In this document: piece after piece, positions 23,919 through 27,172 of the stretch | Numbering within the stretch: position 1 is the first letter of the stretch | Layout of the letters: the number at the start of each line of letters is the position of its first letter | From: an uncultured Myxococcales bacterium | GTDB taxonomy: Bacteria > Myxococcota_A > Polyangia > Polyangiales > Polyangiaceae | Direction of reading: 5' to 3' | Assembly: GCA_937902985.1 (NCBI GenBank) | Contig: CALFNG010000256.1 | Span: forward strand, 1-64,000 | Length of the DNA: 64,000 nucleotides | Program-made: the position numbers and the translations under genes | Notes under the pieces: generated by a model | The model's input: only the letters and a program-made list of their open reading frames with translations | What the model was told of the DNA's origin: nothing | Database searches by the model: none

Positions 23919-24233
23919 ATGAGCAGCAGTGGCTCTAGTAGTGGCTCCAGGGCCTCGCGTGGTTCCGGTAGCTCCGGCGGCCCGAGCGGAACGAAGCGAA
24001 CGCCGGTGACGCCGTGCCTGGGCGATGGGCTGGTCGTGCGCCGCCTCGTCATCCGGTCCCGCGACGTCGTCTTCTTCAAGGGCGTCATCGAGGCGAGCGA
24101 GGGGCTCGCGGCGGTCTTCGCCGAGCACGGGGGAGACCTCACCGTCGCGGCGCCCGTCTCCCGAGCGCCCGAGCTCGACGCGGTGCTGGGGGAGCTCTGC
24201 GTCGAGCTCGGGGCGGTCCGGGTCGACTCCTGA
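23919..24233 (+). CDS. DUF4911-domain protein
   Basis: After a Ser/Gly-rich head of about 25 residues the sequence reads VVRRLVIRSRDVVFFKGVIEASEGLAAVFAEHGGDLTVAAPVSRAPELDAVLGEL. This matches the small DUF4911 domain, whose role is unknown. The N-terminal Ser/Gly run comes from a simple-sequence stretch (AGCAGCAGTGGC-like), so the true start could lie downstream, for example a GTG near 24007. It has no signal or membrane segment. Confidence 0.7.
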   Translation: MSSSGSSSGSRASRGSGSSGGPSGTKRTPVTPCLGDGLVVRRLVIRSRDVVFFKGVIEASEGLAAVFAEHGGDLTVAAPVSRAPELDAVLGELCVELGAVRVDS

Positions 24234-24280: not shown

Positions 24281-25186
24281 ATGGCCGAGCTCGTTCGTTG
24301 CGACAACTGCGGCGCGACGATGGCCCCGCAACGAGACGGGCGGGATGGGCGCCTCTACGCCTGTATATACTGCCGTGCGCAGGTCCAGGTGGCCATCGGC
24401 GCCGATCAGATCGCTGCGGGTATGGCCCTCGACCTGACCAACGTCGACGCCTTCCTCTCGCGCCTCGCGTCGAGCCCGTCGAGCTCGTGCTGTCGTCGAG
24501 CTACTTCCACATCGGGTGGCAGTCCGCGTCGTGGACGACGAACACCGAGCTCGAAGCCGTCTCCGCGCTGATGCTCCGTGCCCGGCACACCGCCATCCAT
24601 CGCCTCGTGAGCCAGGCCAGCGCCGCCGGCGCCGACGGCATCGTCGGCATGCGCTTCGATATCGAGCGCGACGGCCACAGCGCGGAGTTCACGGCGATGG
24701 GCACCGCCGTGCGACGCCGCGCAGGAGACGGCAAGGCCTGGCGACGGCCACGGCCGGCCCTTCACCAGCGATCTCTCGGGGGTCGACTTCTGGGCGCTCG
24801 TCCGCGGCGGCTTCCGTCCGGTGGCGCTGGCGCACGGCGTGTGCGTGTACCACGTGGCGCATCGCTCGCTCGCGGGCTGGCTGTCGGGCACGGGCCAGAA
24901 CATGGAGATGCCGGCGTTCACGCAGGGGCTCTACGAGGCGCGCGAGCTGGCGATGGATCGCATGCAGACCGAGGCGCGCGCGGCGGGCTCCACGGCGGGC
25001 ATCGTCGCCGTCGACGCGCGCGAAGGGAGCCACGGCTGGGACTCGCACGTGATCGAGTTCGTGGCGGTAGGCACGGGCGTGGCGCCGATCGTCGATCCCG
25101 GCCACGAAGTCCACGGCGAGCCGGGGCTCGTGCTCGGCATGCGAGACGACGACGACGACGAGCGACAGGATCTGGACGACGCGTGA
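24281..25186 (+). pseudogene. Zinc-ribbon plus heavy-metal-binding (YbjQ-like) gene with two frame changes
   Basis: Three consecutive pieces in different frames belong together. Frame A (from ATG 24281) has a zinc ribbon, CDNCGATMAP...CIYCRAQ, then ADQIAAGMALDLTNVDAFLSRLA. Near 24465-24480 coherent sequence moves to frame B (VELVLSSSYFHIGWQSASWTTN...ADGIVGMRFDIERDGHSAEFTAMGTAV). Near 24715-24740 it returns to frame A (GRPFTSDLSGVDFWALVRGGFRPVALAHGVCVYHVAHRS...) and ends at 25186 with an Asp-rich tail. The middle and last parts resemble YbjQ-type heavy-metal-binding domains. It is either a decayed gene, a deletion fusion of two genes, or a sequence with two indel errors. Confidence 0.65.
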
Positions 25187-25207: not shown

Positions 25208-27172
25208 TCAACGCTTGACGCTCGACCTCGCGGCCGCGGCGAGCACGGCCTCGAGGTCGCCGGCCAGCGGGGCTTCGAAGACGACCGCCGCCCCGGTGTC
25301 GGGGTGGACGAGCTCGAACCGCGACGCGTGGAGGAACGTGCGATCGAGGCCGCACTTCTCTTCGAAGTAGCGATTGGTAGGCGCGTGGCCGTAGCGCTCG
25401 TCGCCGAGCACGGCGTGCTCGATCGAGGCCAGGTGCCGGAGGATCGGATGCGTGCGGTGCCCCGGGTGCGGCTCCGGCACGACCCGCAAGACGCTGTGGC
25501 CGCCGACGATCGACGCGCGTCGATAGCGCGTGCGCGCCCTGACGAGGGCGCCGCCTTCCTGGAGCGCGCGGGCGATGGAGCCCTTCGACGGCGTCACGCC
25601 CCGCACGGCGGCGACGTAGATCGTGCGCGCGGTCGCGGCGCCGAGCGCACGCTGCCACTTGACGACGTGCTCGGGGCGGCGAGCGAAGATCGTGACGCCG
25701 CTCGTTCCCGCGTCGGGCCAGTGCACGGGGACCGCTTCTTCGGCGCCCGCGAGGGTCCGCACGCGCGCCTGGAGGGAACCCGCGAACCTGGCGTCCGCCG
25801 CCGTGGGCTCGTGGGGACCCTTGTCGACGACGAGCACGGCGTCGTCTTCGTAGACGACGCGGGGCGCCGGGATGACGACGATGACGTCCCGGTGGAGGAC
25901 GGCGACAGTCTCGACCTCGTCGGTCAGCGGGATCATGTCGATCGGGCGAAGGGCGCCGGGCCGGTATCCGAGGCGCGCGAAGTGCGCGAGGTCGCGCGCC
26001 AGGGTGTCGGGCTCGCACGAGACGTAAGCGATGACGGCCGGCGCCAGCCGAGCGAGGGCCTCCCGCGCCGCCGGGCTGGTTCCCCGCCGGGGCGGGTTGA
26101 CGACAGCGGCGTCGAAGCGTTCGCCTCTCTCTCCGAGCGCTTTCAGGGCCGCGGCGGTGTCCGCGCACACCGCGTCGACCTCGAGGTTCTGAGCCTGGGC
26201 GGCGGCCGCGGCTTGCTGGGCTGCCGGCGCGAACGACTCGACGAGCACGACGCGCGCCCCCGCGGCGGCCAGCGCCAGGGCGATGGAGCCCGAGCCGCCG
26301 TAGAGATCGAGCACACGGGGAGGGCGGGTCCGCGACACGCCGACCGCCTCTGCGAGGAGCGCGTGCACCCGCTCGGTCTGGCCGCGGTGCGCCTGGACGA
26401 ACGAGCCGAACGTCGCGAAATGAACCGAGGCTCCGACGCGGTCGGGGGCGCGCGCCACGCCCGCGAGCGCGCGCGTCTCGCTGCCGAGGATCTGCGGTCC
26501 GTCACGGCCGTCGACGCTCGTGTGGAAGTTCGCGGCGACGCCAGCGACCTGGGGCAAAGCCCGCATCAGCTCGCGAGCGGCTCCCCCGAGGGCGGTGAGA
26601 TCCCCCGCGCGCGCTCGCTCGACGACGAACGTGACCAGCACCCTCGCCCCGGAGGCGTCAGGGCCCTCGCGGACTTCGCGCAGGTCGACCGCGCGAAGGC
26701 TCCCGCCCCCGTCGGGTTCGAAGGGCGCGAGCGCGCCGCCCGTGGCCTTCGCTGCCCGGATGCGCTCGCGCAGGGCTGCCGAGACGGCGGAGAGCGCTGG
26801 CGTGAGGACGCGGCAACGTGGAATGTCGACGACGTGATGGCCGCCGCCCTTCGCGAAGAGGCCGACCGAGCCGCCCCGCGCGACGATGAGCTTCGCTCGC
26901 GTGCGGTAGCCGACGACCGGAAGCGCCGCGGCCACGGGCTCGGGAGCCGCGAGATCGAGCCACGGATAGCGCGCGAACGCGGTCGCGACCCGCGCTCGCT
27001 TGTGAACGAGCTGCTCGCCGTATGTCAGGCCGAGGAGCGGACAGCCGCCGCAGCGCTCGGCGTGGTCACAGTTGACGCGCAGCGCCAGGTCGCGTTCGAC
27101 GTCGCCGGGCGTCGACGGACGTTCGGCGGCCCGAGGCGCGGCCCGGGCGACGAGATCATGCGGGGCGGCCAT
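25208..27172 (-). CDS. Fusion of RNA m5U methyltransferase (RlmD/RumA-like) and RluA-type pseudouridine synthase
   Basis: Residues 1-430 form a TrmA/RumA-type SAM-dependent uridine methyltransferase. They include the CxxxxxCGGC cluster site (CDHAERCGGC) and PRC, SAM motif LDLYGGSGSIALAL, VNPPRRG, and the catalytic cysteine in YVSCEPDTLARDL. Residues about 440-654 form an RluA-like synthase with HWPDAGTSGVTIFAR, GHRTHPILRHLASIEHAVLGDERYG and a typical C-terminus. The synthase motif is normally HRLDxxTSG; here the catalytic Asp is kept but the Arg-Leu before it is Trp-Pro. The protein probably modifies two uridines in rRNA or tRNA. The target is unknown. Confidence 0.9.
   Translation of the reverse strand: MAAPHDLVARAAPRAAERPSTPGDVERDLALRVNCDHAERCGGCPLLGLTYGEQLVHKRARVATAFARYPWLDLAAPEPVAAALPVVGYRTRAKLIVARGGSVGLFAKGGGHHVVDIPRCRVLTPALSAVSAALRERIRAAKATGGALAPFEPDGGGSLRAVDLREVREGPDASGARVLVTFVVERARAGDLTALGGAARELMRALPQVAGVAANFHTSVDGRDGPQILGSETRALAGVARAPDRVGASVHFATFGSFVQAHRGQTERVHALLAEAVGVSRTRPPRVLDLYGGSGSIALALAAAGARVVLVESFAPAAQQAAAAAQAQNLEVDAVCADTAAALKALGERGERFDAAVVNPPRRGTSPAAREALARLAPAVIAYVSCEPDTLARDLAHFARLGYRPGALRPIDMIPLTDEVETVAVLHRDVIVVIPAPRVVYEDDAVLVVDKGPHEPTAADARFAGSLQARVRTLAGAEEAVPVHWPDAGTSGVTIFARRPEHVVKWQRALGAATARTIYVAAVRGVTPSKGSIARALQEGGALVRARTRYRRASIVGGHSVLRVVPEPHPGHRTHPILRHLASIEHAVLGDERYGHAPTNRYFEEKCGLDRTFLHASRFELVHPDTGAAVVFEAPLAGDLEAVLAAAARSSVKR

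Follow-up and report, generated by a model that had tools for sequence, protein, structure and literature searches.

For TruB, TrmA and RluD it is still open whether these RNA-modifying enzymes are kept for the mark that they leave or for their handling of the RNA itself. TruB and TrmA have reported non-catalytic roles as RNA chaperones, in which they help RNA to fold apart from catalysis. A gene from an uncultured bacterium of the Polyangiaceae (order Myxococcales), a family of the myxobacteria, which live in soil and water and have large genomes, raises this question within a single polypeptide. The gene lies in the window, the 64,000-nucleotide stretch of contig CALFNG010000256.1 that was analysed here, and encodes an m5U RNA methyltransferase followed by a pseudouridine synthase (PUS) domain of the RluA family whose catalytic motif is altered. 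What is the second domain retained for?

According to the open reading frame listing and its translation, the gene is a single ATG-initiated frame (Table 1). Like RlmCD, RlmD (RumA) and RlmC, its methyltransferase half possesses Fe-S cysteines, an AdoMet motif, the catalytic Cys and Glu, and the same overall fold (RlmCD, 5xj2); unlike them, the protein bears a C-terminal PUS domain and does not reach the cut-offs set for the named equivalogs. The Pfam model PF05958 matched this half at 30.2 bits (cut-off 23), and the best NCBIfam models were those of RlmC and RlmD. The RlmC equivalog NF002910 reached 152.6 bits against a cut-off of 558. The RlmD equivalog TIGR00479 reached 147.8-148.7 bits against a cut-off of 183.55, with a match that begins at model position 55 and leaves the N-terminal TRAM part uncovered. 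As judged by these profiles, the half is a member of the RlmC/RlmD/TrmA family yet neither of the named equivalogs. The PUS half matched TIGR00005, the RluA family model, with an E value of 1.2e-23; PF00849 scored 23.6-26.1 bits, just below its cut-off of 26.8, and the TruC model NF008321 scored 59.5 bits against a cut-off of 328. An AlphaFold2 model of the protein, built with 22 homologues as input, had a mean pLDDT of 84.7 and a pTM of 0.85. Foldseek placed its methyltransferase half closest to RlmCD (5xj2/5zq0; TM normalized to the target, 0.76-0.78) and its PUS half with RluC and RluA (0.72-0.76; E about 1e-14), so that both folds are confirmed at the level of predicted structure. Assembly intermediates of the trypanosome mitoribosome that contain a PUS fold were also among the Foldseek matches; our literature search found no paper stating that these are inactive, and they carry no weight in what follows.

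Table 1. Coordinates of the fusion gene and its features in the window (residues numbered along the encoded protein).
Feature	Position	Strand	Basis
Fusion gene, m5U RNA methyltransferase + RluA-family PUS domain, 654 aa	25208..27172	-	ORF/translation, Pfam/NCBIfam, AlphaFold2 model
Methyltransferase half, residues 32-428, TRAM-less, RlmC/RlmD-like	25889..27079	-	Profiles; Foldseek to RlmCD
Fe-S cysteines C35, C41, C44 (three of four; C120 is the fourth)	27041..27070	-	Presence across the fusion family
N359 within NPPRRG	26096..26098	-	Alignment with E. coli enzymes
Catalytic Cys386 (YVSC)	26015..26017	-	Invariant, 111/111 fused proteins
General base Glu421 (DEVET)	25910..25912	-	Invariant, 111/111 fused proteins
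RluA-family PUS half, residues 437-646	25235..25864	-	TIGR00005; Foldseek to RluC/RluA
PUS catalytic motif HWPDAGTSG, residues 484-492; canonical H-R-[LI]-D-x-G-T-S-G	25697..25723	-	Asp487 kept, R485W
Second altered PUS motif PEPHPGHRTHPILRHLA, residues 566-582; PEQGRTHQIRRHLA in relatives	25427..25477	-	Comparison with relatives
Stretch of about residues 549-615, most residues retained in Asp-less copies (RYRR, GHS, HP..GD, NR.F.E...LDR.F.H)	25328..25528	-	Columns, 55 intact vs 20 dead representatives

The fusion of an m5U methyltransferase with an RluA-like synthase, as proposed in the preliminary description, is confirmed by the reading frame, the profiles and the structural comparison; the two-domain match and the synteny with relatives lie far beyond chance. 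A search with the window protein yielded matches at E <= 1e-40 in 88 of the 108 genomes of its family (about 80%), nearly all of them covering both halves, and none at this threshold in the other 20. Outside this family, the fusion is present in further families of the class and in a few elsewhere in the phylum, and the named records that carry it include Labilithrix, Polyangiaceae and Sandaracinus. Fused proteins form one branch in the tree of either half (support of 95 for the methyltransferase half and 92 for the PUS half), which is consistent with a single origin. Neighboring genes are common to relatives, among them an NAD-binding SDR, a DUF4911-like gene, a gene for a 238-amino acid protein that matches no Pfam family and a glycogen-synthase-like gene, and the locus has therefore been inherited vertically; a horizontal origin is unsupported. 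The DUF4911-like gene, small and conserved, occupies 23919-24233 (+) in the window and is syntenic with the fusion gene across relatives. Like TruC, RluA, RluC and RluD, the second half adopts the PUS fold (TM to RluC/RluA about 0.75) and has an HRLD motif in intact relatives. Unlike these enzymes, it sits behind a methyltransferase, has often lost its Arg or Asp, and forms a branch of its own that falls beside TruC, at a weak support of 76, rather than grouping with RluA. A true TruC orthologue (L001) is encoded elsewhere in the genome of the window. In the open-access literature searched we found no paper describing the fusion, nor did the search return biochemistry for any of its members.

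The two active sites have fared differently across the family. The methyltransferase Cys and Glu are invariant, and the four Fe-S cysteines are present wherever the region is covered, except that a single copy has Ser in place of the first. The PUS catalytic Asp, by comparison, is missing in 27 of 111 fused proteins and either Arg or Asp in 56, whereas stand-alone TruC proteins of the same family, examined as a control, keep Arg, Asp and Tyr in 77 of 77 cases. On a tree of the methyltransferase half alone, a quick tree with many weak forks from which only rough counts can be taken, the Asp state changes 11 times, with at least 6 changes forced by well-supported branches, and the combined Arg and Asp state changes 18 times, at least 9 of them forced. 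The tree thus indicates at least 6, and probably about 11, separate changes of the Asp. The PUS active site is, by its residues, one that has been lost repeatedly across the family while the fold was kept, and the methyltransferase site one that has never been lost. The preliminary description had considered that the fusion might occur only here, with a degenerate synthase in all homologues; instead it is widespread, and 48 of the 111 copies retain an intact Arg-Asp-Tyr set, so that many lineages probably benefit from PUS catalysis.

The copy in the window belongs among the damaged ones. The preliminary description had read its motif as HWPDAGTSG, with the Asp kept and the flanking Arg-Leu lost, and had doubted the activity of the synthase; both points are borne out, Arg-Leu being replaced by Trp-Pro (R485W). 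It did not mention a second lesion. The GRTHQIRRH of relatives reads PHPGHRTHPILRH in the window, through a three-residue insert, Q576P and R578L, and G585E lies close by. Of the columns that are at least 95% conserved in intact relatives, 0 of 68 are changed in the methyltransferase half of the window protein, as against 4 of 44 in its PUS half (Fisher p = 0.022); these four changes, R485W, Q576P, R578L and G585E, all lie within or near PUS active-site motifs. Most close relatives have the canonical H-R-L/I-D, including those of the same genus, which read VHRLDVGTSG (L123) and LQRLDVGTSG (L119/L044), and HWPD is thus a recent, local change in the lineage of the window. From these substitutions we infer that the PUS half has little or no activity left. 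Because Asp487, Tyr519 and T490-S491-G492 are kept, residual activity is possible.

The domain persists after the loss of its Asp. Every Asp-less copy matches, at E <= 7e-18, a profile built from intact PUS domains and has a reading frame that is open across the domain. For pairs in which both copies are Asp-less, the dN/dS of the PUS half was 0.014 (L161/L162), 0.10 (L152/L158), 0.11, 0.21 (L027/L154), 0.21, 0.24 and 0.53, in every case below 1, and several of these domains are under strong purifying selection. In the four Asp-less pairs in which the rest of the domain is well preserved, the PUS half evolves more slowly than the methyltransferase half (dN ratio 0.15-0.77). Selection estimates for the lineage of the window itself are coarse, since its dS to the nearest relatives is about 0.8-0.9. 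A comparison of 55 intact with 20 dead representatives showed that the columns lost in dead copies are the catalytic ones: R485, D487, T490, Y519, the GRTH motif and H580. The columns retained are S491-G492, R549-R552, G558-S560, H586-P587, G590-D591, N600-R601, F603, E605, L609-R611, F613 and H615. In one clade (L026, L150-L167) the Asp is replaced, as is the Arg in most members, yet deviations are confined to 1-3 of the 45 conserved PUS columns, the picture expected of a pseudoenzyme.

We favor, with modest confidence, the reading that the protein is an active m5U methyltransferase whose C-terminal PUS domain is losing, or has lost, catalysis in this lineage and is kept as an RNA-binding or docking part. 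The ancestor would most likely have directed two activities at one RNA. The methyltransferase has been retained throughout, and in many lineages the PUS half may survive only to hold the RNA, perhaps in place of the absent TRAM domain, with the residues retained in Asp-less copies as putative RNA contacts. E. coli RlmC also lacks a TRAM domain (PMC6235398), and like RlmC the fusion has Asn in NPPRRG. In the nearest stand-alone homologues the frame is open for about 80-90 residues ahead of the Fe-S motif, at the position that TRAM occupies in RlmD. A second account, put forward only tentatively, is that the fused PUS became a non-catalytic RNA-docking part on many separate occasions, in place of the missing TRAM, and that intact members make the neighboring pair Psi746 and m5U747 with one chain.

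The candidate target in both cases is 23S rRNA. E. coli RlmC and RluA are annotated as the enzymes for m5U747 and Psi746, respectively, which are neighboring sites, and each of the 18 relatives with a readable 23S rRNA has U746-U747; the assembly of the window genome itself contains no 23S rRNA. TrmFO, which covers tRNA U54, is encoded in 105 of the 108 family genomes, that of the window included, and a separate, longer RlmD-like enzyme in 88 of 108, leaving U747 by exclusion. The target may therefore be U747, with Psi746 in intact copies. This assignment is weakened by one genome (G124), which encodes the only clear RlmC orthologue among the 108 (L077) as well as a fusion with a degenerate PUS. 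A role as a tRNA T-arm enzyme, making m5U54 and a TruC-type Psi65, is disfavored by this distribution of TrmFO and by the presence of the TruC orthologue. The residue at N359 was considered as a marker of the target, since E. coli RlmC also has Asn there and the aligned E. coli RlmD and TrmA have Asp; it is not diagnostic, as both NPPRRG and DPPRRG occur in stand-alone relatives and on several branches.

The adjacency of the two sites also speaks for a fully bifunctional enzyme, in which the PUS would be active despite HWPD and one chain would make neighboring m5U and Psi, for example m5U747 and Psi746. The retained Asp487, Tyr519 and TSG, the intact predicted fold and the full catalytic set in nearly half of the relatives are compatible with such an enzyme, but we regard it as unlikely. 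R485W, Q576P, R578L and the insert strike motifs that are intact in almost all active-looking relatives, the Asp is absent altogether from roughly a quarter of the family (the 27 copies above), the PUS half falls, with weak support, beside TruC and not RluA, and U746 persists where the PUS is dead (G068). This last genome also bears on the idea that the PUS was lost because its target U746 was lost, which is unsupported, since every genome read has U746-U747. The paired modification of neighboring sites suggested in the preliminary description is thus possible for intact copies and does not fit the many copies without a catalytic Asp.

A neutral passenger, in which the PUS half decays towards loss and the methyltransferase alone matters, is rather improbable. 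It would account for the gradient from intact to strongly eroded PUS domains among the fused proteins, for the three strongly eroded Asp-less pairs in which the PUS half evolves faster than the methyltransferase half (dN ratio 1.4-1.6), and for the 20 family genomes without a match. It is opposed by the open frames, the dN/dS below 1 in all Asp-less pairs tested, and the profile matches and fixed set of residues that Asp-less copies retain. An assembly or consensus error, with HWPD and the insert as artefacts in a canonical gene, is very improbable: the genome is a 563-contig assembly and an adjoining gene on the same contig is split by two frame changes, but the fusion frame is open throughout, its altered codons are substitutions and a 9-nucleotide insert without a frameshift at two separate motifs, unlike indel noise, and the methyltransferase half shows no deviation. 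The adjoining gene, at 24281-25186 (+), encodes a zinc-ribbon and YbjQ-like protein in frames 0, 2 and 0, and is either a pseudogene or the product of assembly indel errors.

If the docking interpretation holds, the family amounts to a series of natural experiments in which intact, half-lost and lost synthase domains are joined to the same methyltransferase, and it would allow a direct test of whether RNA-modifying enzymes owe their retention to the handling of RNA and not to their mark. Unlike TruB and TrmA, which are active stand-alone enzymes, the Asp-less members would be fused pseudoenzymes. TrcP of Vibrio cholerae, a C-to-Psi tRNA editor, is similar as far as its description goes, in that pseudouridine synthase activity and a second RNA-base activity reside in one enzyme; its partner activity is C-to-U editing, unlike the m5U methylation of the fusion (PMC9553926).

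Several genomes encode two fused copies each: L030/L066 (G182), L032/L065 (G147), L150/L156 (G198) and L160/L162 (G202). In the duplicates of genera g117 and g119 the PUS Asp has gone from one copy and HRLD persists in the other, and in those of g13 both copies are degenerate, a pattern that, by sequence, fits a division of labor after duplication. In a clade of seven proteins (L150, L152, L157, L158, L161, L162 and L167) the PUS domain is kept except for changes of the catalytic Arg to Lys/Glu and Asp to Glu/Gly, and 12-19 of the 68 conserved methyltransferase columns have changed.
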